From Acidovorax sp. RAC01 (GTDB taxonomy: Bacteria; Pseudomonadota; Gammaproteobacteria; Burkholderiales; Burkholderiaceae_C), in the NCBI RefSeq assembly GCF_001714725.1, contig NZ_CP016447.1:4273501-4337500 (forward strand): a DNA stretch of 64,000 nucleotides. The letters are read 5' to 3'. The notes beneath the pieces were generated by a model. The model saw only the letters and a list, made by a program, of their open reading frames with translations. It was not told the origin of the DNA and did no database searches. How positions within the stretch are numbered: position 1 is the stretch's first letter; each line of letters begins with the position of its first letter. Positions 7,320 to 33,282 of the stretch are shown piece by piece. A program made the position numbers and the translations under genes.

Positions 7320-10300
7320 TCAGTCCACGGCAGCCGCCAGCTCGGGCTGGCCGTAGCCCCCGCCGCCAGGTGTCACGATCTCGAACACATCTCCGGGCTC
7401 CATCAGCGCAGCGCCGATGTGGCCCAGCTCTTCCACGGCCCCGGTGGCGCGCACCACCCGGTTGGCACCGGGGTGGCCCGGCTGCCCGCCCGCCATGCCA
7501 AACGCAGGGTTCAGGCGCCCGTTCGACAGGATGCTGGCCGTCATGGCCTCCAGAAAGCGCACACGCCGCACGCCGCCGTTGCCGCCCGCCCAGCGCCCTG
7601 CACCGCCTGATCCGTTCTGGATCTCGTAGCTTTCCAGCACCACAGGGAAGCGGAACTCCAGCACCTCGGGGTCGGTCAGCCGCGAGTTGGTCATGTGCGT
7701 CTGGACCACGCTGGTGCCGCTAAAGCCGCGGCTGGCCTGCCCCGCAGAGTCCAGCACCACGCCAGCCCCACTGCCGCCGGCAATGGTTTCGTAGTACTGG
7801 TACTGCGCGTTGCCGAAGGTGAAGTTGTTCATGGTGGGCTGGCTGCCGGCCATGACGCCCAGCGCGCCAAACAGCGCGTTGGTGATGCAGGTGGAGGTCT
7901 CCACGTTGCCCGCCACCACCGAAGCTGGCGGGTTGGGGTTGAGCATGCTGCCCTGCGGAATGATGACCTGCAGGGGCTTGAGGCAACCCGCGTTCAGCGG
8001 GATGTCGTCGTCCACCAGCGTGCGGAACACGTACAGCACGGCCGCCATGCACACGGCGCGTGGTGCATTGAAGTTGTTGGTCTGCTGTGCGCTCGTTCCT
8101 GCAAAGTCAATCACGGCGCTGCGCTCTGCCGCGTTCACCTTGACCGACACACTGATCTGCGCGCCGTTGTCCAGCGGCAGCGTGAACTGGCCGTCCTTGA
8201 GCTGCGTGATCACGCGGCGTACGGACTCTTCGGCGTTGTCCTGCACATGGCGCATGTAGGCCTGCACGACATCCAGACCAAACTGTTCCACCATCTTCGA
8301 CAGCTCCTGCACGCCCTTCTCGTTGGCGGCAATCTGCGCCCGCAGGTCGGCCAGGTTTTGATGCGGGTTGCGGCTGGGGTACGGCGTGGTGCCGCCGCCG
8401 GTAGACAACAGGGCCAGCACCGACTCTTCCTGCAGGATGCCGCGGTCCACCAGCTTGACGTTGTTGATCTGCACGCCCTCTTCGTCAATGCGCTGCGAGA
8501 ACGGCGGCATGGAGCCCGGCGTGGTTCCGCCAATGTCTGCGTGGTGGCCACGGCTGCCCACATAGAACGTGGGCTCACGGCCGTCCTTCACATACACCGG
8601 CGTGATGACGGTCACGTCCGGCAGGTGGGTACCGCCGTGGTAGGGGTCGTTGAGCATGAACACGTCGCCGGGCTGCATGCGGCCTGCGTTTTCGGTGATC
8701 ACGGTCTTGATGCTCTCGCCCATGGAGCCCAGGTGCACCGGCATGTGCGGTGCATTGGCAATCAGGTTGCCCTCGGCGTCAAACAGCGCACAGCTGAAGT
8801 CCAGGCGCTCCTTGATGTTCACCGAGTACGCCGTGTTCTGCAGCTGCAGCCCCATCTGCTCGGCAATGTTCATGAACAGGTTGTTGAACACCTCCAGCAA
8901 CACCGGATCGACGCTGGTGCCTGCGGCGTACTGCACATTGCGGGCCGCCACGCGGTCCAGGATCAGGTGGTCCAGATCGGTAAGCCGCGCAGACCAGCCC
9001 GGTTCCACCACGGTGGTCGTGTTCTTTTCGGCAATGATGGCCGGGCCGGGGATCACATCGCCCGGGCGCAGGTCTTCGCGCACCACCAGGGCTGCTGGGT
9101 GCCACTTGCCGCCCGAATACATCTGCACGGTTTCGCGCTGCGGGCACTTGCGGTGCGGGTGCACGGCCAGCCGCGGCTCGGCCGGGGCGTCGCCTGCAAT
9201 TACAGCTTCTACGGACACGGCTTCCACCACCAGGCCCTTGCCCTGCATGAGGAACGCGAAGCGCTGGCGGTACGCCGCCTCGAACGCCGCAGTGATGTCG
9301 GCCATGTCGCCAAACGGCACCACCAGGGCCGAGTCTGTACCTTCGTAGCGCACATGCACGTTGTGGCGCACCTGCACCGGGCTGCTGCTGACCTGTGCGC
9401 CTTCCAGTTCGGCCTGGGCGCCCGAGCCCAGCGCATCCAGGCGCTCGGCAATCAGTGGCAGCACTTCAGGCGCCAGCGGCATCTCCAGCGCCTGCTCTCG
9501 GATCACGGTCTGGTCGGCCAGGCCCATGCCGTAGGCGCTGAGCACACCGGCCAGCGGGTGCACAAACACGCGCGTCATGCCCAGGGCGTCGGCCACCAGG
9601 CAAGCATGCTGGCCGCCGGCGCCGCCAAAGCATTGCAAGGTGTAGCGCGTCACGTCATAGCCGCGCGCCACACTGATCTTCTTGATGGCGTTGGCCATCT
9701 GCTGCACGGCGATCTGGATGAAGCCTTCGGCGACCTCTTCGGGCTGGCGCTTCGTCTGCTGCGCAATGGAATCAAAACGCGCGCGCACGGCATCGGCGTC
9801 CAGCGTTTCGTTGGCAGCCGGGCCAAACACGCTGGGGAAGTAGCGGGGCTGCACCTTGCCCACCATCACGTTCGCATCGGTCACGGCCAGCGGGCCGCCG
9901 CGCCGGTAGCTCACCGGGCCGGGGTTGGCACCTGCACTCTCGGGGCCCACGCGGAAACGCGCGCCGTCGTATGCCAGCACCGAGCCGCCCCCGGCCGCTA
10001 CGGTGTGGATGCTCATCATGGGCGCGCGCATGCGCACCCCTGCCACATGGGTTTCAAACTCGCGCTCGAACTCACCTGCGTAGTGGCTCACATCGGTGCT
10101 GGTGCCCCCCATGTCAAAGCCGATCACCCGCGCCTGCCCGGCCAGGCCCGCCGTGCGCGCCATGCCGACGATGCCGCCCGCGGGACCTGACAGGATGGCG
10201 TCCTTGCCCTGGAAGTTGCCGGCATCGGTCAGACCACCGGACGACTGCATGAAGAACAGCTTGACGCCCGGCATCTCACTGGCCACCTGCTCCACATAGC

Positions 10301-10994
10301 GCCGCAGGATGGGCGAGAGGTACGCATCCACCACGGTGGTATCGCCCCGGCTCACGAACTTCATCATGGGGCTGGTTTCGTGCGAGGTGCTGATCTGCGG
10401 AAAGCCGACCTCCTGTGCAATGCGCTTTGCCGCCTTTTCATGTGCGCTGTAGCGGTATCCGTGCATGAACACGATGGCCACGCTGCGCAGGCCACGCGCA
10501 TAGGCCGCCAGCAGATCGCCGCGCAGGCTGGGCTCATCCAGGGTCTGCAGCACGTCGCCATGCGCGCCCACCCGTTCACCGGCTTCAATCACCTCGGTGT
10601 ACAGCAGCTCGGGCAGCTGGATGTGGCGGTCAAACAGGCGCGGGCGATTCTGGTAGGCAATGCGCAGCGCATCGCGAAAACCGCGGGTGGTCACCAGCAG
10701 GGTGGGCTCGCCCTTGCGTTCAAGCAGCGCATTGGTGGCCACGGTGGTGCCCATCTTCACGCACTCCACCCGGTCTGGCGTGACGGGCTCACCTGGTTTG
10801 AGACCCAGCAGATGGCGAATACCGGCCACCGCGGCGTCCTTGTACTGCTCGGGGTTCTCGGACAGCAGCTTGTGCGTGACCAGGCTGCCATCGGGACGCT
10901 TGCCTACGATGTCGGTGAATGTGCCGCCCCGGTCGATCCAGAACTGCCAGCGGCTGGCCGCAGGCGCGGCATGGGATGTGGTCGTTGCTTGCAT
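7320..10994 (-). CDS. ATP-dependent 5-oxoprolinase, HyuA-HyuB fusion (copy 1)
   Basis: 1224 residues, the full fused length of the OPLAH-type enzyme that hydrolyses 5-oxo-L-proline to glutamate with ATP. Order: hydantoinase N domain ([10 protein letters not shown] near residue 20), hydantoinase A domain with [11 protein letters not shown] near 295, then hydantoinase B from about 690 ([21 protein letters not shown]). The glycine-rich C-terminus is TPGGGGYG. Last gene of a leftward operon, 21 bases after a TRAP binding protein. The family also contains hydantoinases and acetone-carboxylase-like enzymes, but the fused architecture and the cyclase-type neighbour favour 5-oxoproline. A very similar paralogue lies at 25997-29641. 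Confidence 0.88.
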
Positions 10995-11015
10995 GATGGA
11001 AAACTCGCTCAGGAA

Positions 11016-11981
11016 TTAACGTTGGAAGTAAAACGGGATAAAAACCTTGTTGGCCTCGTTGCCTACCGACTGCACCCACTCGCGCGAAAAACGCTCGCCC
11101 AGGCGCTTGAGTTCGGTATCGAGTTCGGCGGTGGCGCGGTCCACCTTGATGCCCTTGCGCTGCAGTTCGGCCACCGACTCTTCGGAAATCGCCTCGCTCA
11201 TGGCCCAGCCGCGGGCTTCGGCATCGGCGGCCGCCTTGACCACCGCCTGCCGCACGGGCGGTGCCAGCGCGTCAAAGGCCTGCTGGTTCACGAACACGAT
11301 GTTTTTGGGAAACCAGGCGTTGATGGGGTAGTAGTGTTTGATCTGGCCCCACACCTGGTTCTCCACACCTGTCAGGGCCGAAGTGATCATCGAATCGAGC
11401 TTGCCGCCCGAGAGCGCCTTGTTCACCTCGACCATGGGCACATCCACGGGAGCTGCATTCAAAAGCTCGGCAATGCGCACCGTGGCGGGGTTGTAGGTGC
11501 GCATGCGCGTACCCCTGAAGTCGGCAGCCGAGCGCACGGGCGCTATGGAAAAAAGACCCTGCGGCGGCCAAGGCACGGCATAGAGGGCCTTCATGCCTTT
11601 GCCCGCAAAGTGGGTATCGATCAGCGGGCGCTGCAGGTCCCACATGCGCCGGGCATCGGCAAACGTGCGCACGACAAACGGAACCGAATCCGCCCCGGCG
11701 ATGGGAAGATCACGCACCAGACTGCTCATGATGGTCTCGCCTGCCTGGGCCTTGCCGCCCTCGACTGCGGCCGCAATGTCGGAGAGCTTGAAGAGTGCAT
11801 TGTTGGGATGCACCTCAATGCGCAGCGCACCAGCCGACGCTTTCTCCACCTCCTGCGCAAACTGGACGATGTTGCGGGTGTGGAACGATTCCGCCCGATA
11901 GCCGGTGGCCAGCTTCCACTGTGTCTGGGCGTGCACCATCGGGGCCGCGGCGAGCGCGGCCAGCATGAGAGCTTTGATCAT
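11016..11981 (-). CDS. TRAP transporter substrate-binding protein, DctP family (second binding protein of operon 1)
   Basis: 321 residues with a cleavable signal peptide ending MVHAQ. The mature part starts TQWKLATGYRAESFHTRNIVQF, and the RMRTYNPATVRIAELLNAAPVDV segment is the DctP signature with the conserved Arg that binds a ligand carboxylate. It delivers a carboxylated solute to a DctQM permease. It sits between dctM and the oxoprolinase gene, 45 and 21 bases away respectively, in the same leftward operon as another DctP at 13969. Homologous but clearly divergent sequences suggest two ligands or two affinities. A pyroglutamate-binding DctP subgroup is known in Bordetella (recalled), which fits the context. 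Confidence 0.9.
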   Translation of the reverse strand: MIKALMLAALAAAPMVHAQTQWKLATGYRAESFHTRNIVQFAQEVEKASAGALRIEVHPNNALFKLSDIAAAVEGGKAQAGETIMSSLVRDLPIAGADSVPFVVRTFADARRMWDLQRPLIDTHFAGKGMKALYAVPWPPQGLFSIAPVRSAADFRGTRMRTYNPATVRIAELLNAAPVDVPMVEVNKALSGGKLDSMITSALTGVENQVWGQIKHYYPINAWFPKNIVFVNQQAFDALAPPVRQAVVKAAADAEARGWAMSEAISEESVAELQRKGIKVDRATAELDTELKRLGERFSREWVQSVGNEANKVFIPFYFQR

Positions 11982-12026
11982 GGTTGCTCCGGATACGGAA
12001 TACGTGGGGGCGGGAGACCGGTACCG

Positions 12027-13319
12027 CTACATGCGGTTGGGCAGCCAGAGAACGATGTCCGGCATGAAATAGGTGGCAATCACCGCAAAAATCATGAGCA
12101 CGAACAAGGGGAACGCCGTGCGCGCAATCCACATGATTTCCCTGCGGGTGAGCCCCTGAATCACGAACAGGTTGAACCCCACCGGCGGCGTGATCTGCGC
12201 CATCTCCACCACCAGCACGATGAAGATGCCAAACCACACCAGATCAAAGCCCGCGGCCTCTACGGTGGGCAGCAGCACAGCGATGGTGAGTACCACCATC
12301 GAGATGCCGTCTAGGAAGCAGCCCAGTGCAATGAAGAACACGATGAGCAGCAGCATGAGCGCGAAAGGCGAGAGCTGCAGCGAGCCGATGAATTCGGCCA
12401 GGTGGCGCGGCAGGCCGATGAAGCCCATCGCAAGCGTCAGAAAGGCTGCGCCAGCCAGGATCAAGCCGATCATGCAGTACACACGGCACGCGGCGACAAG
12501 CCCTTCCTTGAACTTGCTCCAGTTCAGCGAGCCTTCGATCTTGGCAAGGAGCAGCGCCCCACCGACCCCCAGCGCCGCGGCTTCTGTCGCCGTGGCGATG
12601 CCGCTGTAGATGCCGCCCAGGACCAGCACGATCAAAGCCACCACCGGAATCAGGTGGCGCGATGCATAGACCATCTGGCCAAAGCTCATCCGGGCATCGG
12701 GCGCGGGAATCTTGTCCTTGTTCAGCAGGGCCCACACAGCGATGTACCCCATGAAGAGCGCAGCAAGCAAGAGGCCCGGGATCACCCCGGCAAGGAACAG
12801 CTTGGAAATCGACACATTGGCCGCGACCCCGTACACGATCATGATGATCGACGGTGGGATCAGAAGGCCCAGCGTGCCGGCACCGGCCAGCGTGCCCACC
12901 GAAATGTTGTCGGGGTAGCCGCGCTTTTTCAGCTCGGGCAGGGTCATCTTTCCGATGGTGGCGCAGGTAGCGGCCGATGAGCCCGAGATGGCGGCAAAGA
13001 TCGTGCAACCGACCACGTTCACATGCAGCAGGCGGCCAGGCAGGCGCTCCAGCCACGGCGCCAGGCCCTTGAACATGTCGCTCGACAGTTTGCTGCGAAA
13101 CAGGATCTCGCCCATCCACAGAAACAGCGGCAATGCGGTCAGCGTCCAGCTGGAGGTATGGCTCCAGATGGTCAGCATCATGCTGTCCCCAACAGGGCGG
13201 CTGGTAAAGAATTCCATTCCGACCAGCGCCACTGCGAGCAGAGACAACCCGATCCAGAGGCCCGAACCCAGCACTGCGAACAGCGCCAGGATCAGACCCA
13301 AAGCAATGACAACTTCCAT
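12027..13319 (-). CDS. dctM: TRAP transporter large permease, DctM family
   Basis: 430 residues, about 12 hydrophobic segments. It forms the sodium-driven translocation channel of a TRAP uptake system. Conserved family blocks include SGSSAATCATIGKMTLPE, LIPPSIIMIVYGV, ATATEAAALGV and EMAQITPPVGFNLFVIQG. Start MEVVIALGLILALFAVLGSG lies 21 bases after the dctQ stop. Expected to pair with DctQ (13341-13850) and with one or both adjacent binding proteins. Confidence 0.94.
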   Translation of the reverse strand: MEVVIALGLILALFAVLGSGLWIGLSLLAVALVGMEFFTSRPVGDSMMLTIWSHTSSWTLTALPLFLWMGEILFRSKLSSDMFKGLAPWLERLPGRLLHVNVVGCTIFAAISGSSAATCATIGKMTLPELKKRGYPDNISVGTLAGAGTLGLLIPPSIIMIVYGVAANVSISKLFLAGVIPGLLLAALFMGYIAVWALLNKDKIPAPDARMSFGQMVYASRHLIPVVALIVLVLGGIYSGIATATEAAALGVGGALLLAKIEGSLNWSKFKEGLVAACRVYCMIGLILAGAAFLTLAMGFIGLPRHLAEFIGSLQLSPFALMLLLIVFFIALGCFLDGISMVVLTIAVLLPTVEAAGFDLVWFGIFIVLVVEMAQITPPVGFNLFVIQGLTRREIMWIARTAFPLFVLMIFAVIATYFMPDIVLWLPNRM

Positions 13320-13340
13320 GACTATCTCCCCGGATTCTGG

Positions 13341-13850
13341 TTATTCGAAACTGGCTGTCTCGGAGACGGCCATGAAAGACGAGCCCTGCCATCGCAGGAT
13401 CAATGCGTGGGCAAATGCGAGCGCAAAGCCGATACAGCCCATCGCCATGCTGATCTGCGGTATCCACAGCGGTGTGGCATCGGCAGCGGGCGAGATGTCG
13501 TGTGTGATGTAGGAGATCCACACTGCCCGCACGGCATAAAAAGCGATGTAGAGCGTCAATACCAGGGCAGCAGACAGGCAGAACCACTCCATGAAGTTGC
13601 GTGCGCGGGCGGGCAGCCTGTCCAGCACGAGCGTCACGCGGATGTGGTCGCCGTTTTGCAGCGTGGCAGGCAGCGCAAAGAACAATGCGGCGGCAATGGC
13701 GTAGCCTGCATAGGCATCGAGGCCATTGATGTTGATGTGGATGAATTCACGGGCCAGCACGCCGAGGGCGACCGCGCCAAACGCTGCCAGCATGGACAGG
13801 CAGGACAGCAGCATGAGCAGCCTGTAGAAATTGCGGACGAGTTTGTCCAT
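13341..13850 (-). CDS. dctQ: TRAP transporter small permease, DctQ family
   Basis: 169 residues with four hydrophobic segments, starting MDKLVRNFYRLLMLLSCLSML. GGAG lies eight bases before this ATG; a longer in-frame extension upstream is not supported. DctQ is the essential small membrane partner of DctM. The segment HININGLDAYAGYAIAAALFFALPATLQNGDHIRVTL is typical. It lies between dctP (gap of 118 bases containing a strong hairpin) and dctM (gap 21). Confidence 0.92.
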   Translation of the reverse strand: MDKLVRNFYRLLMLLSCLSMLAAFGAVALGVLAREFIHININGLDAYAGYAIAAALFFALPATLQNGDHIRVTLVLDRLPARARNFMEWFCLSAALVLTLYIAFYAVRAVWISYITHDISPAADATPLWIPQISMAMGCIGFALAFAHALILRWQGSSFMAVSETASFE

Positions 13851-13931
13851 GGCGTACTCCAGTAACGCTTGAAAGGTGGGGACGGGGGCGACGAAAGTGC
13901 GAAGGGGTAGCGCTGCGCCGTGCACTACCCC

Positions 13932-13957
13932 GGCCCCGCGCCAGGCGCGGCGGGGCC
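13932..13957. other. Strong GC hairpin between dctP and dctQ
   Basis: GGCCCC and GGGGCC pair, with a further imperfect inner stem, in the 118-base gap between the binding-protein gene and the small permease gene. There is no T-run. It could lower expression of the membrane genes relative to the binding protein, or protect the dctP message end. Confidence 0.4.
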
Positions 13958-13968
13958 AGAAGGGCTCA

Positions 13969-14934
13969 CTACTTCTTGCGGTAGGCGTCGATGATGGCCT
14001 GACCTTCAGCGCCGGCCGACTTGATCCAGTCAGCGGTCATCGTCTCGCCGATGCTTGCCAGTTCCTTCTTGATGCTGTCGCTGGGCTCGGCCACCGTCAT
14101 GCCCTTGGCGGCGAGTTCCTTGACGAACTCTTTGTCCAGGCGCTCGCTGGTGGCCCAGCCGCGCTCTTCGGCCGCCGCAGCAGCCTTGAGCACAGCGTCC
14201 TGCAAAGGTTTTTCCAGCGCATCAAATGCTTTCTGGTTCACCACGGTGGCATTGCGGGGCAGCCATGCGCTCACTGGGTAGAAATACTTGACCTGCTCGT
14301 ACAGCTTGGACTCCACACCGCTGGCACTGGATGTCAGGAAGTTTTGCACCGTGTTGGTCGCAAGCGCCTGGCCCAGTTCAGACAACTGGATCGTCACAGG
14401 CTGGGCTTTCAGAAGCTGCGCAATGCGTGTGGTGGCTGGGTTGTAGGCGCGCATCTTGGTGCCTGCAAAGTCTGCTGGCGTGCTGACTGGCTTGAGCGAG
14501 TACAGCGACTGGCCTGGCCAGGGCACGGAAAAGAGCACCTTCACGCCCTGCGACGCCAGCAGCTTCTCCTGTGCTGGTTTGGCCGCCTGGTACAGCTTTC
14601 TGGAATCTGCATACGTGGTGGCCAGGAACGGGATGGAATCCACCCCGAACAGTGCGTTCTCGTTGGTCGCACCGGAGACGATGAACTCTGCCGAAGGCAC
14701 CTGCCCCGTCTGCACTGCCCGCTTGATCTCATTGGCCTTGTACAGCGAGCCGGCAGGATGCAGCGTGATCTTGAGCTTGCCACCCGTGAGCTTGTCGACT
14801 TCGTCGGCAAACTGCTGGACGTTTTGTGTCTGGAAGCTGTTGGCGCTGTAACCCGTGGGCAGATCCCACTTGACCTGGGCCTGTGCCGCACACACGGCAA
14901 GCGCAGCCGTCAGGGAGAGGGCAAATTTCTTCAT
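13969..14934 (-). CDS. dctP: TRAP transporter substrate-binding protein, DctP family (first binding protein of operon 1)
   Basis: 321 residues. Signal peptide MKKFALSLTAALAVCAAQAQ, then VKWDLPTGYSANSFQTQNVQQF. The ligand-site block KMRAYNPATTRIAQLLKAQPV is intact, and the protein ends DAYRKK. Very similar in layout to the DctP proteins at 11016 and 30445. It captures a carboxylate solute in the periplasm for DctQM. Located 24 bases after the DUF1445 gene and before dctQ, so the gene order is cyclase, binding protein, permease, binding protein, oxoprolinase. Substrate inferred from context as 5-oxoproline or a related acid. Confidence 0.92.
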   Translation of the reverse strand: MKKFALSLTAALAVCAAQAQVKWDLPTGYSANSFQTQNVQQFADEVDKLTGGKLKITLHPAGSLYKANEIKRAVQTGQVPSAEFIVSGATNENALFGVDSIPFLATTYADSRKLYQAAKPAQEKLLASQGVKVLFSVPWPGQSLYSLKPVSTPADFAGTKMRAYNPATTRIAQLLKAQPVTIQLSELGQALATNTVQNFLTSSASGVESKLYEQVKYFYPVSAWLPRNATVVNQKAFDALEKPLQDAVLKAAAAAEERGWATSERLDKEFVKELAAKGMTVAEPSDSIKKELASIGETMTADWIKSAGAEGQAIIDAYRKK

Positions 14935-14958
14935 GGTGAACTCCTGGTGAAAAGCCGC

Positions 14959-15786
14959 TTAAAAGCTGGCGAGCTGGTGGTTGAAGAGATCGGTGATCAA
15001 CATGCAGCCCGGCGCGTGCGTGATGCAGAACGCGGGCTGTGCATTGAGGATGGCGGACTGCGGCGTGACGCCACATGCCCAGAAGACAGGGATTTCGTCG
15101 GGCAGCAGCTCGACGGCATCCCCATAGTCCGGCGCGGCAAGGTTGGCAATGCCGATGAGCGATGGGTTGCCGATGTGCACGGGCGCGCCATGCACATCCG
15201 GGAAACGCGACGTGACCTGCACCGCGCGGATCACGTCCGCGGCGAGCATGGGCCGCATCGACACGACCATGGCACCGCCGAAGGGACCGGCGGTTTCGGT
15301 CTGGATGCTGGTGCGGTACATCGCCACGTTCTTGCCCTCGTTGATGTGGCGCAGGCCGATGCCGGCCTCCTGCAGGGCTGCCTCAAAGGAGAAAGAGCAG
15401 CCCAGGACAAACGTCACCAGGTCGGGCCGCCACAGGTCGCTCACGTCCGCCACTTCCTGGGCCAGCTCGCCATGGCGCCATACGCGGTACATCGGCAGGT
15501 CGCTGCGGATGTCGATGCCCATGCCGAGCGACGGCAGCGTGGTCTGACCAGGTTCGCTGACTGCCAGTACCGGGCAGGGCTTCGGGTTGCGCTGGCAAAA
15601 CCGCAGGAAGTCACCGGCCAGCACTTCGGGCAGGATGACGACATTGCCCTGCACACGATTGCGGGCGAGGCCGCTGGTGTGGGCTGTCCAGTGGCCCTGG
15701 CGAATGACACTGCGCACATGCTGGGGGTCGTCCAGCGCTTGTGCTCCGAATACCGCGACTGCGTTCTGCTGATTTGCCTGCACCAT
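14959..15786 (-). CDS. DUF1445 (UPF0317) putative hydro-lyase / D-glutamate cyclase family
   Basis: 275 residues from [24 protein letters not shown] lies close upstream of this ATG; the frame extends 26 codons further, but that start has no such support and exceeds the usual family length. Family blocks: [67 protein letters not shown] and [13 protein letters not shown]. The same domain occurs in the mitochondrial D-glutamate cyclase, which forms 5-oxo-D-proline from D-glutamate. Bacterial members are mostly uncharacterised. Operon position with TRAP genes and a 5-oxoprolinase makes a cyclase role attractive, but this is inference. Confidence 0.88.
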
Positions 15787-16130
15787 GTTCTCCGCCGTGA
15801 TGGATGTCACTTGTGTGACGTTGGGCGGATTGTGTTGGCGGGTAACAGGTTGTGGCAAATTCAAAAAATTTCGCTCACGTCATCGATTTTTTCGATGCAC
15901 CACAGAGGGGAAAGCGAACATTACGGGCTCTACTTTGGTGCTAGTGGTTAACCCTTATTCGTCAGATTCGGGTTATCCCTGAGCCAAGACATCTGGGTTG
16001 CCTGGCGGAAATGGGCCGCCAGCCCACCTGTGCGCCTGTCGGTACCGTGAACACCACCGCGGCCCAGCCGGACGACACAGTGCGGCAGGCCATGCGCTGC
16101 GCGACAAGCGTGCTGTGGGCGTAACAGGTG
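15787..16130. promoter_or_regulatory. 344-base gene-free region: promoter/control region of oxoprolinase operon 1
   Basis: Between the LysR gene and the DUF1445 gene, both leftward. The part nearer DUF1445 is AT-richer than its surroundings and contains a LysR-type box (15881-15897). An inverted repeat TAACCC/GGGTTA lies at 15949-15975, and a seven-bp hairpin CTGGCGG/CCGCCAG at 16002-16022. No ORF here looks like a gene. A separate promoter for the operon downstream of lysR is likely. Confidence 0.55.
15881..15897. promoter_or_regulatory. LysR-type binding box CATCGA-N5-TCGATG
   Basis: A perfect six-bp inverted repeat with a TTTTT spacer, which contains T-N11-A, the classic LysR-regulator core. 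It lies about 95 bases upstream of the DUF1445 start and is the best candidate site for the LysR protein encoded next door. Confidence 0.5.
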
Positions 16131-17036
16131 CTATGCCGCGGTCGCGGCCTGCTTCACATCCTGCGCTTCCATGAACGCCATGGCGGAAGCCACGAGCCCT
16201 TCCATCGCAGGCGACGAGGGGTCTTCGCGGTAGCTCACATGGATCGGGAGCGGCCGCAGTGCGATCTCGCTGTCCAGGGCTCGCAGGTGCGGAAATGCCA
16301 GCATCCGCTGCACCGCCAGCCGCGGCAGCGTAGCAATGCCGAACCCGCCCTGCACCAGTTGCACCATGGCCGAGATTGAAGAGATGGTGTGCACGCAGCG
16401 CGGCTCGGCCTGGGCTTGCCGCAGTGCATCCAGCAGGTAAACATGCGGCTGCGATCCGCGCTGGAAGGTGAGGATGTCTTCGCCCGCGAAGTCGGACGCC
16501 AGGTAGTGGCGCTTGCGGTGGATCTTGCGGTTGCCCACGAACACCATCTCCATCGTCGTGAGGGCCTGGTTGCGAATCCCGTCGCCCGAAGCCGGCAACG
16601 CCGCAAACACGGCATCCAGCGTTCCGCGCCGGATCTGGTCGATCAGCACGGGCGTGGATTCCACCGTCAGCTCCAGCTCCAGCAGGGGGTTGTCCTTGCG
16701 CAGCTGCTCCACCCACGGAATCAGCCACGAGTGCAGCACCGACTCGATGGCCCCCAGGCGCATCGATACCTCTACCGGCCCGCCAGAGCCCATCTCGGAC
16801 TTGAGCTGGCGCTGCAGCTCCAGCATGCGCTTGGCGTAGGTGAGGAAACGCGTGCCGGCCACCGTGAGACGAAAGTTCTTGTCGCGACGATCCAGCAGCA
16901 GCACGCCGAGCTCGTCTTCCAGGGCCGCAATCCGGCTGGACATGGCCGACTGGGTAAGGAACAGTTTTTCCGCAGCGCGAGTGACACTCTTGAGGGACGC
17001 GACCCAGTAGAAGGCCTCGACAAAACGCAAGTTCAT
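16131..17036 (-). CDS. LysR-family transcriptional regulator
   Basis: 301 residues, starting MNLRFVEAFYWVASLKSVTRAAEKLFLTQ. The N-terminal winged helix-turn-helix has the SVTRAAEKLFLTQSAMSSRIAALEDELG pattern. It is followed by the linker and the effector-binding domain (IDQIRRGTLDAVFAALP). It lies immediately upstream of, and in the same direction as, the DUF1445/TRAP/oxoprolinase operon, and diverges from lapA. Probably the pathway-specific activator sensing a pathway metabolite; the effector is unknown. Confidence 0.93.
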   Translation of the reverse strand: MNLRFVEAFYWVASLKSVTRAAEKLFLTQSAMSSRIAALEDELGVLLLDRRDKNFRLTVAGTRFLTYAKRMLELQRQLKSEMGSGGPVEVSMRLGAIESVLHSWLIPWVEQLRKDNPLLELELTVESTPVLIDQIRRGTLDAVFAALPASGDGIRNQALTTMEMVFVGNRKIHRKRHYLASDFAGEDILTFQRGSQPHVYLLDALRQAQAEPRCVHTISSISAMVQLVQGGFGIATLPRLAVQRMLAFPHLRALDSEIALRPLPIHVSYREDPSSPAMEGLVASAMAFMEAQDVKQAATAA

Positions 17037-17213
17037 GGGGATTCCTGGACGCGGCGCGGGCAGCCATGCAGACTGGCTCCACCATCACCGCGCCCGCATT
17101 TTGCCGCCCGGCGCGCGCGTGGCCAACCAGGGCATGCACAGCCGGCGTGCGTGGCCCGGCGCCGACCACTGCGCTCCGGCTCTTAGAATCACGCCACCAC
17201 TGGAGCACCCCCG

Positions 17214-22737: not shown

Positions 22738-22894
22738 CGAGAGAACATCCCCCTGTGGCGCTTTGCGCCTTCCCCCCGCTCTCGCAGCGCTGCGCGCTTC
22801 TGGCGGCGGGAAGCAGCTCGCGTTGCGAGGCCGCCCTTGCCGGGCTGCGCTCGCCAGATCGTGCCCGTTGCATGGGCCGCGCGAGGCAATGGCC
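22738..22894. repeat. Intra-operon GC-rich palindromic repeat between mrpC and mrpD
   Basis: 157 bases without a gene, in an operon whose other junctions overlap or are a few bases apart. It contains GGCGCTTTGCGCC, CCGCTCTCGCAGCGCTGCGC and GGCGGCGGGAAGC blocks. These resemble a family of imperfect hairpin-rich intergenic repeats common in Burkholderiales genomes (recalled). It ends just before the GAGG ribosome site of mrpD. Confidence 0.5.
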
Positions 22895-24604
22895 ATGACA
22901 ACCACGGCATACCTTCTGGAGCGGCTGATGCCGCACCTCATCCTGGCGCCCATTGCGCTGCCGCTGGTCACGGCCGGGCTGATGCTGCTGCTGCGCGAGG
23001 AGCGCCAGCGCACCAAGGTGGCGATGAACATCGCCTCGACGCTGCTGGGGCTGGTGGTCGCGGTGCTGCTGCTGGTGCAGGCCAAGCAGCCGGGCGGGCA
23101 GGCCAGCATGGGCGTGTACCTGCCGGGCAACTGGCCCGCACCGTTTGGCATCGTGCTGGCCATCGACCGGCTTTCGGCCATGATGCTGGTGCTGACCAGC
23201 ACGGTGGCGCTGGCCAGCGTGCTGTTTGCCGTGGCGCGCTGGCACCGGGCGGGCGTGCATTTTCATCCGCTGTTCCAGTTCCAGCTGATGGGGCTGGCCG
23301 GGGCCTTCCTCACGGCCGACCTGTTCAACCTGTTCGTGTTTTTCGAGATCATGCTGGCCGCCTCTTACGGGCTGCTGCTGCATGGCTCGGGGCGGCCACG
23401 GGTGTCGGCCGGGCTGCACTACATTGCCATCAACCTGGCAGCGTCGTCGCTGTTCCTGATCGGCGTGTCGATGCTCTACGGCATCACCGGCACGCTGAAC
23501 ATGGCCGACCTGGCGCAGAGCATTGCCGGCGTGGCCCCGGCCGACCGGGGGCTGCTGCACACCGCGGCCGCCATCCTGGCGCTGGCGTTTCTCATCAAGG
23601 CGGCCGTGTGGCCGCTGAACTTCTGGCTGGTGCCTGCCTACAGCGCCGCCACGGCCCCGGTGGGCGCGCTGTTTGCGCTGATGACCAAGGTGGGCGTGTA
23701 CAGCGTGCTGCGCCTGTGGACGCTGCTGTTCGGTGCCGAGGCAGGCGAATCGGCGCTGTTCGGCAGCCACTGGCTGGTGGGCGGCGGCATGGTGACGCTG
23801 GTGTTTGGCGCCGTCGGCATGCTGGCATCGCAGCGGCTGGGCCACCTGGCAGGGTATGCCGCCATCCTGTCGTCGGGCACGCTGCTGGCGGCCCTGGGTT
23901 TTGGACACAGCGGGCTCACGGCCGGGCTGCTGTACTACCTGCTGGGCTCCACCATGGCCATCAGTGCGCTGTTCCTGCTCAGCGATTTGATTGACCGGTG
24001 GCGCAACGATGGCTCCAACCTGGCCCCCCACGAGCAGACGGACGATGCCCCGTTTCTTTCGGCCGACCTGCAGCCCACCCAGGCCATCAACCTGGACGAC
24101 AAGGAGCAGGCCCTGATCGGCAAGGTGATCCCGGCGGCCACGGCGTTTCTGGGCCTGGCCTTCATGGGCTGCACGCTGGTCATTGCCGGGCTGCCGCCCC
24201 TGCCGGGCTTTGTGGGCAAGTTCGCCATGGTGCACGCGCTGCTCAACCCGCTGGGCCTGGGGGCCGGGCAAGGCCTGCAGCCCGGCCCGGCCGGGTGGAC
24301 GCTGATTGCGCTGCTGGTGGGCTCGGGCCTGCTGGCGCTGCTGGCGCTCACGCGCGTGGGCATCCGCCACTTCTGGGCAGCGCAAGGCCGGTCGGCCCCG
24401 CAGCTGCTGGTGCTGGAGGGGTTGCCCATTGCGCTCTTGCTGACCGCCTGCGGCGTGCTCGTGTGGCAGGCCGGCGCCGTGATGCGCTACACCCAGGCTA
24501 CGGCCGATGCGCTGCACACACCCTCCATCTACGTGCAGTCGGTGATGACGGCGCGCCCCGTGCCCAACCCCAACGCGAAGCCTGACGCCGGAGGCACGCC
24601 ATGA
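22895..24604 (+). CDS. mrpD: Mrp/Pha antiporter subunit D
   Basis: 569 residues from MTTTAYLLERLMPHLILAPIAL. GAGG eight bases upstream favours this ATG over another two codons earlier. NuoN/NuoM-like, about 14 membrane segments. Conserved blocks include GLAGAFLTADLFNLFVFFEIMLAASYGLL and LIKAAVWPLNFWLVPAYSAA, with the channel lysine in LIKAAVWPLNFWL. Partner of subunit A in ion translocation. Its stop overlaps the subunit E start (ATGA). Confidence 0.94.
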   Translation: MTTTAYLLERLMPHLILAPIALPLVTAGLMLLLREERQRTKVAMNIASTLLGLVVAVLLLVQAKQPGGQASMGVYLPGNWPAPFGIVLAIDRLSAMMLVLTSTVALASVLFAVARWHRAGVHFHPLFQFQLMGLAGAFLTADLFNLFVFFEIMLAASYGLLLHGSGRPRVSAGLHYIAINLAASSLFLIGVSMLYGITGTLNMADLAQSIAGVAPADRGLLHTAAAILALAFLIKAAVWPLNFWLVPAYSAATAPVGALFALMTKVGVYSVLRLWTLLFGAEAGESALFGSHWLVGGGMVTLVFGAVGMLASQRLGHLAGYAAILSSGTLLAALGFGHSGLTAGLLYYLLGSTMAISALFLLSDLIDRWRNDGSNLAPHEQTDDAPFLSADLQPTQAINLDDKEQALIGKVIPAATAFLGLAFMGCTLVIAGLPPLPGFVGKFAMVHALLNPLGLGAGQGLQPGPAGWTLIALLVGSGLLALLALTRVGIRHFWAAQGRSAPQLLVLEGLPIALLLTACGVLVWQAGAVMRYTQATADALHTPSIYVQSVMTARPVPNPNAKPDAGGTP

Positions 24605-25170
24605 GCGCACCGCGCAAAGCCCCCGCCCCGCGCCGCAGCCTGCTGCGCCGGCTGGTGCCGGGCCCGCTCCTGTCGCTGGCCCTGCTGGGCCTGTGGCTGC
24701 TGCTCAACCGCAGCCTGAGCGCCGGGCACATCGTGCTGGGCAGCGTGCTGGCGCTGGCCGTGCCGCTGGTCACGGCCGGGCTGCGGCCGCTGCCGGTGCG
24801 CATCCGCAAGCCGGGGATCGCGCTGCGCCTGTGCCTCACGGTGATGGCGGACACGGTGCAGTCCAACCTGGCGGTAGCGCGCCTGCTGCTCATGCCCGGC
24901 CGCCGCCGGCATCCTCCGGGCTTCGTCCACATTCCGCTGGACATGCGCGACCCCAACGCCCTGGCCGTACTGGCCATGATCGTCTGCATCACCCCCGGCA
25001 CTGCCTGGGCAGAGCTGTCACTGGACCGCAGCATGCTCTTGCTGCATGCGCTGGAGGTGGACGACCCCGAAGCCATGGCGGCCGACATCAAGCGCCGCTA
25101 CGAGGCGCCGCTGATGGAAATCTTTGAATCGGCTGCGGCCCACGCCGTGATACCTGATCCGGAGGACTGA
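24601..25170 (+). CDS. mrpE: Mrp/Pha antiporter subunit E
   Basis: 189 residues. A short basic N-terminus, two or three membrane segments (LLSLALLGLWLLLNRSLS and HIVLGSVLALAVPLV), then a cytoplasmic domain with the family block MIVCITPGTAWAELSLDRSMLLLHALE. Start overlaps the stop of subunit D. Needed for stability of the complex; no direct transport role is known. Confidence 0.92.
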   Translation: MSAPRKAPAPRRSLLRRLVPGPLLSLALLGLWLLLNRSLSAGHIVLGSVLALAVPLVTAGLRPLPVRIRKPGIALRLCLTVMADTVQSNLAVARLLLMPGRRRHPPGFVHIPLDMRDPNALAVLAMIVCITPGTAWAELSLDRSMLLLHALEVDDPEAMAADIKRRYEAPLMEIFESAAAHAVIPDPED

Positions 25171-25173
25171 ACC

Positions 25174-25452
25174 ATGACCCCGATCCTCGACTGGGCCCTG
25201 CCCACTGCCCTCTTTCTGCTGGCCCTGGCCATGGCCTGTGCGCTGGTGCGGGTGCTGCGCGGCCCCACCGCGCAAGACCGGGTGCTGGCGCTCGACTGCA
25301 TGTACCTGTGCGGCATGCTCGTCATGCTGGTGCTGGGGCTGCTGTATGGCAGCAAAAACTACTTCGAGGCGGCGCTGCTGCTGGCCCTGTTCAGCTTTGT
25401 GGGCTCCATGGCCATGGCCAAGTTTTTGCTGCGTGGCGAGGTGATCGAATGA
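25174..25452 (+). CDS. mrpF: Mrp/Pha antiporter subunit F
   Basis: 92 residues with three membrane helices. The conserved block VRVLRGPTAQDRVLALDCMYL is diagnostic for MnhF/MrpF. Four bases after subunit E, and its stop overlaps the subunit G start. Confidence 0.93.
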   Translation: MTPILDWALPTALFLLALAMACALVRVLRGPTAQDRVLALDCMYLCGMLVMLVLGLLYGSKNYFEAALLLALFSFVGSMAMAKFLLRGEVIE

Positions 25453-25820
25453 CCCCCGTGCTGCCACTGTGGCTGGAGATCATCGTGGCCGCACTGGTGC
25501 TGGGTGGTGCGCTCCTGGCACTGCTGGGCGCTGTGGGGCTGTTGCGCCTGCGTACCTTTTTCGAGCGGGTGCACGCGCCCTCGGTCATTGCCACGCTGGG
25601 ATGCTGGCTGATCGTGCACGCCACGGTGCTGTACTTTTCGGTGGCAGACCAAAGCCTGGCGCTGCACGCCCTGCTGATCGCCGTGTTCGTGGCCATCACG
25701 GTGCCGGTGATGTCGATCTTTTTGATGCGGGCAGGGCTGTTTCGCGCCCGCCTGGCTGGCGAGGCGGTGCCGCCCAGCCTGAGCCAGCCACGCAGCGGCC
25801 CCACCGCCAAAGACTCCTGA
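25449..25820 (+). CDS. mrpG: Mrp/Pha antiporter subunit G
   Basis: 123 residues with three membrane helices. The segment LLGAVGLLRLRTFFERVHAPSVIATLG is the MnhG signature. Last gene of the complete A/B-C-D-E-F-G operon. The short Ser/Pro-rich tail is unremarkable. A dispersed repeat follows immediately. Confidence 0.93.
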   Translation: MTPVLPLWLEIIVAALVLGGALLALLGAVGLLRLRTFFERVHAPSVIATLGCWLIVHATVLYFSVADQSLALHALLIAVFVAITVPVMSIFLMRAGLFRARLAGEAVPPSLSQPRSGPTAKDS

Positions 25821-29739: not shown

Positions 29740-30270
29740 CTACAGCGACGCCGCCGAGCGCGCTGCCTGGTCGTACATGCCCGACAGTACACGCAGCAAT
29801 CGCGCCAGCTCGCCGATGTCCTTGTTCAGCGCGTCGTCCGCCTTCAACGCGTCGATCAGGCAGCTCTCGCGGATCTCGCGGTAGCGCTGCACGTAGCTGC
29901 GGCCCAGGTCGGTGGCCGAATAGGTGACTTCCTTGCCATTCTTGCTGGAAGCCACCACGCCCAGGTTCTGCAGCTTCTTGAGCGAGTAGTTCACCAGGTG
30001 CGTGTCTTCCACGTTCATGATGAAGCAGATGTCGGCCAGGCGCTTGTCGCGCGCGCGGTGCGTCACATGGTGCAGCACCAGCACATCGAGCGGCATCAGG
30101 TCCTTGAGACCGGCGGCGGCCATGCAGTGCACCACCCAGCGGTGGAACGCGTTGCCCGCCACGATGAGGCCGAACTCGAACTCGCTCATCTCGGCACTGC
30201 GGGCCGAGACCAGGTGGGCGGAAGACACGATGGATACGGCGTCGGCAGATTTCTTGGCAGCAGGCTTCAT
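29740..30270 (-). CDS. MarR-like winged-helix transcriptional regulator
   Basis: 176 residues from MKPAAKKSADAVSIVSSAHL; AGGA lies seven bases upstream, while the longer frame has no such support. The central region (LMPLDVLVLHHVTHRARDKRLADICFIMN) and the wing (VNYSLKKLQNLGVVASSKNGKEVTYSATDLG) fit predicted MarR-type DNA-binding proteins. It lies between oxoprolinase 2 (same strand) and a divergent TRAP operon, so it probably controls both. Effector not known; a pathway acid is likely. Confidence 0.85.
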   Translation of the reverse strand: MKPAAKKSADAVSIVSSAHLVSARSAEMSEFEFGLIVAGNAFHRWVVHCMAAAGLKDLMPLDVLVLHHVTHRARDKRLADICFIMNVEDTHLVNYSLKKLQNLGVVASSKNGKEVTYSATDLGRSYVQRYREIRESCLIDALKADDALNKDIGELARLLRVLSGMYDQAARSAASL

Positions 30271-30444
30271 CGTGGTCCTGAAGGGGGCACCCTGGCACGG
30301 GATGTGCATGTTGGCGCGTTGTAGGCATGTTGATAATAAATCGTCGGTAATTTGTCGACGTTCAGGCAAACACCTATGCCGCCGCAGGTTGCCCTCCGAT
30401 ACATTGCATGCACACCTTTTTACTCAACCACCGTGGAGTTCCCC
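30271..30444. promoter_or_regulatory. Divergent promoter region between marR-like gene and TRAP operon 2
   Basis: 174 bases. An AT-rich island at about 30330-30356 (TTGATAATAAATCG, then GGTAATTTGTCGAC) stands out from the GC-rich surroundings and probably carries the promoters and the regulator's site. I could not define one clean palindrome. Confidence 0.5.
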
Positions 30445-31428
30445 ATGAAGCGTCGCATCTTCCCCCTTACTGCGCTGGGCGTGGTACTGACCCTGGGCCT
30501 TTCGGCCGGCACAGCTTTCGCCCAGACCAAGTGGGACCTGGCCGCGGCCTACCCCGCCACCAACTTCCACACGGAAAACATGGTGCAGCTGGCCAATGAT
30601 GTGGACAAGGCGACCGCCGGCAAGCTCAAGATCACGGTGCACGCCAACGCGGCCCTCTTCAAGGCCCCCGAAATCAAGCGCGCCGTGCAGGGCGGCCAGG
30701 CGCAGATGGGCGAGATTTTGCTGGCCAACTTCCAGAACGAGTGGCAGCTGTTCGGCGTGGATGGCCTGCCTTTCCTGGCCGACAGCTACGACGCATCCAG
30801 AAAGCTCTACGCCGCGCAAAAGCCCTTCCTGGAAAAGAAGCTGGCCGAGCAGGGCATGGTGCTGCTGTACTCGGTGGCATGGCCCCCACAGGGCATCTAC
30901 ACCAAGAAGCCACTGGCCTCTGCGGCAGACCTCAAGGGCATCAAGTGGCGCGCCTACAGCCCTGCCACCGCCCGCATTGCCGAGCTGGTGGGCGCGCAGC
31001 CCGTCACCGTGCAGGCGGCAGAGTTCTCGCAGGCACTGGCCACGGGCGTGGTCGAATCGACCATGACCTCGGGCGCCACGGGTGTGGACAGCAAGCTGTT
31101 CGAGCACCTCAAGTTCTACTACGACACCCAGGCCTGGCTGCCCAAGAATGCCGTGCTGGTGAACAAGAAGGCTTTCGATGCGCTGGACAAGGCCAGCCAG
31201 GACGCCCTGCTTAAGGCCGGTGCCGACGCCGAAGCCCGCGGCTGGGCCAACAGCGCCAAGGTCAACACCGACACCATCGCCAAGCTCAAGGCCAATGGCA
31301 TGGACGTGGTAGCCCCGCCCGCAGCGCTCAAGGCTGACATGGCCAAGGTGGGTGACACCATGCTCAAGGAATGGCTGGACAAGGCTGGCCCCGAGGGCAA
31401 GGCCCTGATCGACGCGTACCGCAAGTAA
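30445..31428 (+). CDS. dctP: TRAP transporter substrate-binding protein, DctP family (operon 2)
   Basis: 327 residues. Signal peptide MKRRIFPLTALGVVLTLGLSAGTAFAQ, mature TKWDLAAAYPATNFHTENMVQL. The ligand block KWRAYSPATARIAELVGAQPV is intact, and the protein ends DAYRK like the DctP at 13969. GGAG precedes the ATG. First gene of dctP-dctQ-dctM. Similarity to the two DctP proteins of operon 1 and the neighbouring oxoprolinase suggest uptake of 5-oxoproline or a close relative; this is inferred, not shown. Confidence 0.92.
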   Translation: MKRRIFPLTALGVVLTLGLSAGTAFAQTKWDLAAAYPATNFHTENMVQLANDVDKATAGKLKITVHANAALFKAPEIKRAVQGGQAQMGEILLANFQNEWQLFGVDGLPFLADSYDASRKLYAAQKPFLEKKLAEQGMVLLYSVAWPPQGIYTKKPLASAADLKGIKWRAYSPATARIAELVGAQPVTVQAAEFSQALATGVVESTMTSGATGVDSKLFEHLKFYYDTQAWLPKNAVLVNKKAFDALDKASQDALLKAGADAEARGWANSAKVNTDTIAKLKANGMDVVAPPAALKADMAKVGDTMLKEWLDKAGPEGKALIDAYRK

Positions 31429-31444
31429 ACCGGCAAAACAGCCC

Positions 31445-31954
31445 ATGCGTCGCCTGCTTGATTTTGTGTACGACAGCGCCGCCGCATTGGCGGCGCTTTT
31501 CATGGTCGGGCTGCTGGGCATGGTGCTGCTGTCCATCGCCAGCCGCCAGTTCCACTTTCATGTGCCCGGCACCGATGCCTATGCGGGCTACATGATGGCG
31601 GCGGCGGGTTTTCTGGCGCTGGCGCACACGCTGAAGCGCGGCGAACACATCCGGGTGACGCTGCTGCTGAGCGTGCTCAAAGGCGGGGCGCGCAAGGCGT
31701 TCGAACTGTGGTCCCTCGCCATTGCCACCTTGCTGGCAGTGCTGTTTGCCTTCTACAGCTGCAAGCTCGCATGGCAATCGCATGAATTTCACGATATTTC
31801 CACCAGCAGCGACGCCACACCGCTGTGGATCCCGCAGATTGCCATGGCACTGGGCACCGTGATCCTCGCCATCGCCTTTGTGGACGAGCTGGTGCTGGAG
31901 CTGCTGAACAAGCGCCAGAGCGCCCACCACAGCGAGGCACTTCGCAATGAATGA
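31445..31954 (+). CDS. dctQ: TRAP transporter small permease, DctQ family (operon 2)
   Basis: 169 residues and four membrane helices, the same length as the DctQ of operon 1. The block HVPGTDAYAGYMMAAAGFLALAHTLKRGEHIRVTL corresponds closely to that paralogue. Lies 16 bases after dctP and 23 before dctM. Forms the membrane complex with DctM. Confidence 0.93.
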   Translation: MRRLLDFVYDSAAALAALFMVGLLGMVLLSIASRQFHFHVPGTDAYAGYMMAAAGFLALAHTLKRGEHIRVTLLLSVLKGGARKAFELWSLAIATLLAVLFAFYSCKLAWQSHEFHDISTSSDATPLWIPQIAMALGTVILAIAFVDELVLELLNKRQSAHHSEALRNE

Positions 31955-31977
31955 CCTGACACAACCCGGGCTCTGCC

Positions 31978-33282
31978 ATGAGTGACTTAGCCATTACCGG
32001 CCTGCTGGTGCTCTCGCTGTTCCTGATTCTGGGCAGCGGCGTCTGGATCGGGCTCACGCTGTCGGGCGTGGCCTGGATCGGGATGCAGCTTTTTTCGGCG
32101 CGCCCCGCGGGCGACGCCATGGCGGTAACCATCTGGGGCTCGGCCTCCAGCTGGACGCTTACGGCCCTGCCGCTTTTCATCTGGATGGGCGAGATCCTGT
32201 TTCGCACCCGCCTTTCGCAGGACATGTTCAAGGGCCTGGCGCCGTGGGTGCAGGCCCTGCCCGGCCGGCTGCTGCACACCAACGTGATCGGCTGCACCAT
32301 CTTTGCCGCCGTATCGGGCTCGAGCGCAGCCACCTGCGCCACCATCGGCAAGATGACGTTGCCCGAGCTGACGCGGCGCGGCTACCCCGAGAGCATGGTG
32401 GTGGGCACACTGGCGGGGGCCAGTACGCTGGGGCTGCTGATCCCGCCGTCGATCATCATGATCGTCTACGGCGTCACGGCTGAAGTGTCGATCTCGCAAC
32501 TGTTCATTGCCGGCGTCCTGCCCGGCATCCTGCTTGGCGTGCTGTTTTCGGGCTACATCGTGCTGTGGGCGCTGCGCAACCCCTCACAGGTGCCGGCGGC
32601 CGATGAGCGCATGACGTTCATGCAAAAGCTGTCTGCATCGCGCAGCCTGATCCCCGTAGTGCTGCTCATCACGGCCGTGCTGGGCTCCATCTACACCGGC
32701 TTTGCCACGGCCACCGAGGCCGCAGCGGTCGGCGTGGTGGGCGCGCTGGTGCTGTCGGTCGTGCAAGGCTCGATGAGCTGGCAGACCTTCACCGCGTCTC
32801 TGATGGGGGCCACGCGCCTGTACTGCATGATCGCGCTGATCTTGGCGGGCGCGGCCTTTCTGACGCTGGCCATGGGCTACATCGGCCTGCCGCGCCATCT
32901 GGCTGAATGGATCGGCTCGCTGGGCCTGAACAAGGCGCAGCTGATTGCAGCGCTGGCCGTGTTCTTCATCATCCTGGGCTGCTTCCTGGATGGCATCTCG
33001 ATGGTGGTGCTGACCATGGGCGTGATCATGCCCACGGTGCAGGCTGCCGGGATCGACCCCATCTGGTTCGGCATCTTCATCGTACTGGTGGTCGAGATGG
33101 CGCAAATTACGCCACCCGTGGGCTTCAACCTGTTCGTGCTGCAGGGCATGACGGGCAAGCAACTGCCCTGGATCGCCAAGGTTTCCATGCCCATGTTCGT
33201 CCTGATGTGCGGCGCCGTGGCGCTCATCTACCTCTTTCCGGGCATCGTCACCTGGCTGCCGCAGCAGATGGCCGGGCGCTGA
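31978..33282 (+). CDS. dctM: TRAP transporter large permease, DctM family (operon 2)
   Basis: 434 residues, about 12 membrane helices. SGSSAATCATIGKMTLPE, LIPPSIIMIVYGV, ATATEAAAVGV and EMAQITPPVGFNLFVLQG are nearly identical to the operon 1 DctM. Sodium-coupled channel subunit. Last gene of the operon, followed by a strong terminator. Confidence 0.95.
   Translation: MSDLAITGLLVLSLFLILGSGVWIGLTLSGVAWIGMQLFSARPAGDAMAVTIWGSASSWTLTALPLFIWMGEILFRTRLSQDMFKGLAPWVQALPGRLLHTNVIGCTIFAAVSGSSAATCATIGKMTLPELTRRGYPESMVVGTLAGASTLGLLIPPSIIMIVYGVTAEVSISQLFIAGVLPGILLGVLFSGYIVLWALRNPSQVPAADERMTFMQKLSASRSLIPVVLLITAVLGSIYTGFATATEAAAVGVVGALVLSVVQGSMSWQTFTASLMGATRLYCMIALILAGAAFLTLAMGYIGLPRHLAEWIGSLGLNKAQLIAALAVFFIILGCFLDGISMVVLTMGVIMPTVQAAGIDPIWFGIFIVLVVEMAQITPPVGFNLFVLQGMTGKQLPWIAKVSMPMFVLMCGAVALIYLFPGIVTWLPQQMAGR

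Follow-up and report, generated by a model that had tools for sequence, protein, structure and literature searches.

We analysed a 64,000-nucleotide window of Acidovorax sp. RAC01 (contig NZ_CP016447.1, positions 4,273,501 to 4,337,500 of the forward strand; the host genome is one contig of 4.57 Mb), following up an earlier note made from its sequence alone. The window holds two gene modules, each with a fused 5-oxoprolinase of the OPLAH type beside genes of a tripartite ATP-independent periplasmic (TRAP) transporter and a regulator of its own, as the note had described (Table 1). Module 1, on the minus strand, reads LysR, DUF1445, dctP-a, dctQ, dctM, dctP-b and oxoprolinase 1. As the gaps from DUF1445 to oxoprolinase 1, calculated from the coordinates, are only 21-45 bp, these genes lie as in one tight six-gene operon behind the LysR gene. 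In module 2, oxoprolinase 2 and a regulator gene on the minus strand, whose HTH_27 domain fits the description "MarR-like", are divergent from dctP-c, dctQ and dctM on the plus strand (30352-33282). In total, the window encodes three DctPs and two DctQ/DctM pairs. The system is real, well conserved and mostly of a known kind, a TRAP transporter for pyroglutamate (5-oxoproline) with a 5-oxoprolinase; its interest lies in the DUF1445 gene, which the note had placed correctly in module 1.

Table 1. Features of the two modules in the 64,000-nucleotide window (positions of the window)
Feature	Position	Strand	Evidence and remarks
LysR-family regulator, module 1 (frame)	16131..17036	-	HTH_1 E 4.4e-18; LysR_substrate E 5.8e-35
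DUF1445 protein	14959..15783	-	PF07286 (D-Glu_cyclase) E 6e-67; probable start GTG 15783, longer frame to TTG 15864
DctP-a, TRAP solute-binding protein, predicted pyroglutamate subfamily	13969..14934	-	PF03480; best PDB chain 2pfz E 8e-95
DctQ, small TRAP membrane subunit, module 1	13341..13925	-	PF04290 E 3e-19
DctM, large TRAP membrane subunit, module 1	12027..13319	-	PF06808 E 8e-82; TIGR00786 above cut-off
DctP-b, second, divergent solute-binding protein	11016..11981	-	PF03480; best PDB chain 2pfz E 1e-68
Fused OPLAH-type oxoprolinase 1, 1224 aa	7320..10994	-	Four Pfam domains in one frame
Methyl-accepting chemotaxis protein, possible module 1 companion	5501..7201	-	HAMP, MCPsignal
Fused OPLAH-type oxoprolinase 2, 1224 aa	25997..29671	-	Four Pfam domains in one frame
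MarR-like winged-helix regulator, module 2 (frame; true start further in)	29740..30369	-	HTH_27 E 2e-18
DctP-c (frame; mature part from about residue 59 of frame)	30352..31428	+	2pfz E 5e-128
DctQ, module 2	31445..31954	+	PF04290 E 8e-21
DctM, module 2	31978..33282	+	PF06808 E 2e-78

Both oxoprolinases carry Hydant_A_N, Hydantoinase_A, Hydant_A_C and Hydantoinase_B in a single open frame, with the A and B halves fused at the length expected of the OPLAH type (about 1200-1300 aa), and their sequences make membership of the fused family clear. The two fused enzymes of the earlier note thus stand, except that its limit for the second, 29641, is a later start codon in the same frame, which extends to 29671. 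A profile search of the whole genome returned two Hydantoinase_B (PF02538) matches, both being these enzymes, together with one DUF1445 gene and 13 DctP matches; PxpA and DUF4392 (PF14336) gave no match in this search. Over 1212 residues the oxoprolinases share 81% identity, compared to 69% for the DctM pair, 52% for DctP-a and DctP-c, and 45% for the DctQ pair. Judged by these identities the modules are related, without having the appearance of one module copied whole. In a quick tree without bootstrap, oxoprolinases 1 and 2 fell in the same starred set of 8 rows; this tree includes four very long rows, spurious overlapping frames of background loci L137, L139, L140 and L142, and those of L139 and L142 took the place of real rows of the same name. 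Two ideas about the pair were set aside. A D/L split between the enzymes is unsupported at this identity and with both in one starred set, and separate lineages for MarR-linked and DUF1445-linked oxoprolinases were not seen, as the MarR-linked copy of the window falls among the DUF1445-linked ones.

The P, Q and M subunits (PF03480, PF04290, PF06808) occur together in both modules. For all three DctPs, the top three PDB relatives were 2pfz, 2pfy and 6wgm, and the next match scored far lower. We take the first two codes to be the Bordetella pertussis receptors DctP7 and DctP6, respectively; all three DctPs are closer to these than to other TRAP receptors of known structure. DctP6 and DctP7 are reported to have been solved with 5-oxoproline, with a dissociation constant of 0.3 µM for DctP7, and to have a eukaryotic-type 5-oxoprolinase gene in their vicinity (PMC13274462). 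By sequence, then, all three DctPs of the window belong to the B. pertussis pyroglutamate-receptor subfamily, in agreement with the earlier note, and for this reason import and hydrolysis of pyroglutamate is the best reading of the modules. According to the same source, B. pertussis could not be shown to use 5-oxoproline (PMC13274462), and the membrane components of that system are described as seemingly mutated (PMC5812351). A quick DctP tree of 42 rows, in which 27 positions agree in at least 41 rows, grouped DctP-c with 2pfz (starred set of 11), DctP-a with other DctPs of DUF1445 operons (set of 13, support 93, unstarred), and DctP-b in a long, starred set of its own (10 rows). DctP-b begins with a signal-peptide-like stretch, read by eye; its gene has no Q and M genes of its own and lies directly upstream of oxoprolinase 1.

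For the distribution of DUF1445, we made an even draw of 150 Pseudomonadota genomes, the host of the window included. DUF1445 occurred in 17 genomes, PxpA in 38 and Hydantoinase_B in 65, of which 33 were counted as having fused OPLAH. PxpA or fused OPLAH was present in all 16 other DUF1445 genomes, compared to 65 of 149 overall (p 5e-7, kinship ignored), and lay within 10 kb at 7 of the 17 other DUF1445 loci, against 0.09 expected; when any Pxp gene is counted, 8 of these 17 loci have a 5-oxoprolinase gene within that distance. A larger set of 97 loci joined these 17 to the 80 nearest named loci, in which Acidovorax and other Comamonadaceae are the closest relatives by DUF1445 sequence. OPLAH was found in 28 of the 97 (on the same strand in 24) and Pxp genes in 21, the two together in none. 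At least 49 loci had a 5-oxoprolinase in their flanks, and among the 62 loci with full flanks the count was 37. The earlier note had staked its reading on a search of this kind: DUF1445 does co-occur with oxoprolinase and TRAP genes, and the contrary outcome that it had named did not appear.

The arrangement of module 1 is not a product of chance, since the full order LysR-DUF1445-DctP-Q-M-DctP-oxoprolinase recurs in 7 of the 97 loci: a same-family relative (L035), Rhodoferax, two Polaromonas, Hydrogenophaga, Aquabacterium and a betaproteobacterial metagenome-assembled genome. PxpABC takes the place of OPLAH at L044 and L117, where the genes run LysR-DUF1445-DctP-Q-M-PxpABC and the LysR is only a 31-33% relative. 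Elsewhere, the importer beside DUF1445 is of a different TRAP clade, of the major facilitator superfamily, or an ATP-binding cassette (ABC) importer of the Liv type. As both the enzyme family and the importer vary between loci, the recurrent pair is DUF1445 with a 5-oxoprolinase. The OPLAH label takes 13 changes on the DUF1445 tree (shuffled mean, 23.8), which argues that the partners of DUF1445 have been exchanged repeatedly. What is new here is that DUF1445 goes with the 5-oxoprolinase reaction, whichever of two unrelated enzyme families performs it, and not with one family. Relatives of DctP-b at 45% identity or more were found ten times in the 97 loci. Nine of them lie 10-66 bp before an OPLAH gene, even at L054, where an ABC importer replaces the TRAP genes; the exception, L060, has no OPLAH in the stretch examined. 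DUF1445 also has a second context, in which the TRAP genes are of another clade, DUF2848 is present, an amidase is frequent, and Pxp genes may or may not accompany them (L045, L046, L102, L127, L128 and others).

The start of the DUF1445 protein is probably the GTG rather than the TTG of the longer frame, because many homologues have 274 aa. The protein scored 413.7 bits against PRK05463, "putative hydro-lyase" (cut-off 324). Its solved relatives, 3db9 and 2pif, are the UPF0317 proteins Atu3911 and PSPTO_5379, structural-genomics entries whose titles name no function; UPF0317 and 3nek were the only standouts among the structure-search matches listed. All of 98 DUF1445 sequences have Cys128 and Cys236; Cys69 and two histidines are likewise invariant. 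In the AlphaFold2 model (predicted local distance difference test score, 89.5), each of the former two cysteines ends a predicted strand (121-127 and 229-235) before a helix (130-138 and 239-247). No racemase was among the best 50 matches of each of two structure searches, a result that carries no evidential weight.

The "D-glutamate cyclase" label of PF07286, which the earlier note had carried over to the window, is inherited from a two-domain mammalian protein. Mouse 9030617O03Rik is reported to convert D-glutamate to 5-oxo-D-proline; it is composed of DUF1445 and DUF4392, the latter being named by the authors as its racemase-like part (PMC5339696). A second report places both domains in a single protein in higher animals, and describes for an archaeal DUF4392 protein a weak phosphatase activity that depends on Mn2+, as well as a metal site (PMC5132392). 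The vertebrate enzyme (9030617O03Rik/C14orf159) thus has DUF1445 in common with the window protein and differs from it by DUF4392, of which the host genome of the window has neither domain nor gene; the label is not supported here. DUF4392 was present in 5 of the 150 sampled genomes, 3 of these with DUF1445 (p 0.01). A DUF4392 gene lay on the DUF1445 strand in 14 of the 97 loci, never with OPLAH. Nine of these 14 also had Pxp genes and a class-IV aminotransferase (on the other strand in 2); the best score of the one aminotransferase tested was for D-amino-acid transaminase, below the cut-off. In the DUF1445 tree, the five loci that have DUF4392 and no 5-oxoprolinase together make up a starred side of one branch.

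We compared the modules in 23 other genomes of the genus (G150-G172). Nineteen have a near full-length match to oxoprolinase 2 at 92-97% identity, flagged in two cases for internal stops; three others had fragments (87-89%) and one a 67% relative. An orthologue of oxoprolinase 1 was found in 14 of the 23, in rows at 81-82% identity to oxoprolinase 2, and was 92-93% identical to oxoprolinase 1 in the three loci checked. The same 14 genomes had an orthologue of DctP-b (79-86%), and 13 of them DUF1445 (79-86%); LysR orthologues (86-87%) stood beside DUF1445 in loci L166 and L167. Module 2 is thus near-universal in the genus, and module 1, having orthologues in 14 of 23 congeners, is an accessory cassette. 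Where both oxoprolinases share a contig (2 of the 14 genomes), they are about 0.11 Mb (G153) and about 0.69 Mb (G167) apart, and in the other 12 they lie on different contigs. The closeness of the modules in the window therefore looks local, and the view of the earlier note, that one system is run twice, is not borne out. Nor is a co-ordinated doubling of neighbouring modules supported by the fetched congener loci. A methyl-accepting chemotaxis protein (MCP) gene accompanied module 1 in 3 of 3 loci and ETF-QO in 2, the third stretch ending before that point. Near oxoprolinase 2, all 5 of 5 loci had an Mrp gene; 4 of them showed CrcB at the TRAP end and 3 showed LOG (stretches cut).

Several congeners depart from this pattern. 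Divergent DUF1445 genes occur in G151 and G168; at L173, that of G168 is accompanied by PxpA, a PxpC-like gene, a biotin carboxylase and an Nramp-family gene, a set reminiscent of the B. subtilis ycsG-ycsI-pxp operon. In G171 (L169), a 59% relative of DctP-b precedes the core oxoprolinase. At the module 1 locus of G153 (L165), DctM, DctP-b and oxoprolinase 1 are present, and LysR, DUF1445, DctP-a and DctQ were not found there; given these missing genes and an adjoining HrpA-like helicase gene, the locus looks like a truncated remnant, and we rejected it as a natural DUF1445-free control. In G160 (L168, 4794-11951), two elements interrupt the core module 2: an ABC importer of the peptide type, whose ATPase is closest to GsiA, below the cut-off, and a 593-aa protein with no Pfam match at 1e-5 and no PDB match. 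The latter contains a HANETSG stretch, which we take to resemble M14 carboxypeptidases. G172 (L171, 7038-14224) has an insert with the same gene sizes; the two inserts suggest a peptide source of pyroglutamate.

Our preferred reading, which we hold to be likely, is that both modules take up pyroglutamate by TRAP transport, that an ATP-dependent 5-oxoprolinase of the OPLAH type then opens it to glutamate, and that DUF1445 probably handles the D side. We infer the substrate from kinship with the solved pyroglutamate receptors. Module 2, with its MarR-like regulator, would be the standard copy of the genus, and the LysR-associated module 1 an accessory cassette with extra reach, supplied by the additional DctP-b and by DUF1445. 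The latter would work with the 5-oxoprolinase reaction as such, irrespective of enzyme family, and most likely turn the D compound of the pyroglutamate/glutamate pair into one usable by the shared pathway. A role in handling the D enantiomer is favoured, if unproven; the reaction is a guess: DUF1445 may invert 5-oxoproline, or it may open 5-oxo-D-proline to D-glutamate in a separate branch.

A number of observations weigh against this reading. Forty-eight of the 97 DUF1445 loci lack a 5-oxoprolinase, some on short contigs (L055 is counted here despite an OPLAH fragment at its contig end), as do 25 of the 62 with full flanks. A DUF2848 gene is present at 14 of these 48 loci, several of which also have an amidase and a different TRAP clade, and so DUF1445 may serve another substrate too. 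DUF4392 is absent from the host genome and from all OPLAH loci, and the hint of a D side therefore comes from other operons. The two oxoprolinases are close paralogues with no sign of L and D versions. Furthermore, the best solved relative of oxoprolinase 1 is 7hk5, named N-methylhydantoinase, both oxoprolinases score far below the NCBIfam caprolactamase cut-offs, and, as OPLAH, N-methylhydantoinase and caprolactamase share one superfamily, family membership leaves the substrate unfixed. The substrate might thus be another small lactam or a cyclic ureide of the hydantoin type, to which the DctPs and the oxoprolinase have diverged from pyroglutamate. The breadth of the superfamily and the DUF1445 loci with DUF2848 and amidase genes would suit this possibility, but the affiliation of the three DctPs and the exchange of OPLAH for Pxp genes within the same operon type speak against it, and we judge it quite unlikely.

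The earlier note had joined uptake, cyclisation and hydrolysis into one route, in which D-glutamate, taken up or made, is cyclised by DUF1445 to 5-oxo-D-proline and then hydrolysed by the oxoprolinase. This would agree with the name of PF07286 and with the activity of the mouse protein (PMC5339696), but its net result is D-glutamate from D-glutamate at the expense of ATP. Because D-glutamate is regenerated, cyclase and oxoprolinase cannot be consecutive steps of one scavenging route without an inversion between them. The parts of the mouse report drawn on here do not assign the activity to DUF1445 (PMC5339696), the host genome lacks DUF4392, and the DctPs are of the pyroglutamate subfamily; the route is very improbable. 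Alternatively, DUF1445 could be a two-thiol 5-oxoproline racemase that converts imported 5-oxo-D-proline to 5-oxo-L-proline for an L-specific oxoprolinase. A racemase would explain the pairing with either oxoprolinase family, and the invariant Cys128 and Cys236 would fit, as a cysteine at a strand end before a helix is the arrangement in proline racemase and DapF. The equally invariant Cys69 and two histidines count against it, and we regard this reading as doubtful, if worth entertaining. Its extended form, a cofactor-free two-thiol racemase serving either L-specific 5-oxoprolinase class, with DctP-b as the receptor that extends uptake to include the D form, is unlikely; if true, the stand-alone bacterial protein would be wrongly named "D-glutamate cyclase", and the vertebrate cyclase activity would sit in, or need, DUF4392. 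In a further alternative, which we regard as doubtful, if also worth entertaining, DUF1445 equilibrates 5-oxo-D-proline with D-glutamate, a racemase or transaminase drains the D-glutamate, and the oxoprolinase takes the L form. The chemistry would be that of the mouse enzyme reversed, and the class-IV aminotransferase of nine DUF1445-DUF4392 loci, the tested one being closest to D-amino-acid transaminase, would fit. However, the equilibrium favours the lactam, so that a strong drain is required if the ring is to open without ATP, and no draining enzyme is encoded in the operon of the window. If this is the case, DUF1445 and the oxoprolinase would together use racemic pyroglutamate.

Outside the two modules, oxoprolinase 1 is followed after 118 bp by the chemoreceptor gene in the same orientation, and an orthologue of the latter (78-80%) directly adjoins oxoprolinase 1 in the three fetched module 1 congener loci. 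MCP-like genes in 8 of the 97 DUF1445 loci were taken as merely common; what speaks for the chemoreceptor as a possible companion of module 1 is conservation among congeners. It might sense the module 1 substrate. Between the modules are a LapB-like tetratricopeptide-repeat gene and an Mrp-type Na+/H+ antiporter operon (19433-25820). A promoter and terminator scan of 5300-17100 gave no signal above shuffled sequence.

TRAP uptake beside an OPLAH gene is already known from Bordetella: DctP6 and DctP7 of B. pertussis share with the window the DctP subfamily, the transporter type and a nearby OPLAH-type gene (PMC13274462), and Achromobacter (L068, L084) has the module 2 arrangement, with DctPQM divergent from MarR and the oxoprolinase. 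Compared to B. pertussis, the window has an extra module with DUF1445, LysR and the additional DctP-b. The PxpABC operons (B. subtilis pxp with ycsG and ycsI; C. glutamicum pxpTABC) convert 5-oxoproline to glutamate, as proposed for the window, with an enzyme family unrelated to OPLAH and another transporter. The gene ycsI is reported in the B. subtilis pxp operon (PMC10448178). We equated YcsI with UPF0317 by names, and B. subtilis matches PF07286; ycsI is thus the DUF1445 gene. Titles and abstract openings of the literature matches named no bacterial function for DUF1445, PF07286 or YcsI (Niehaus 2017 not covered), and in the literature searched we did not meet the observation that DUF1445 accompanies this reaction in two unrelated families of 5-oxoprolinase and beside several types of transporter. 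In module 1, DUF1445 and its natural partners lie in one compact operon, where its reaction is testable, and the same operon bears on which half of the vertebrate enzyme cyclises.

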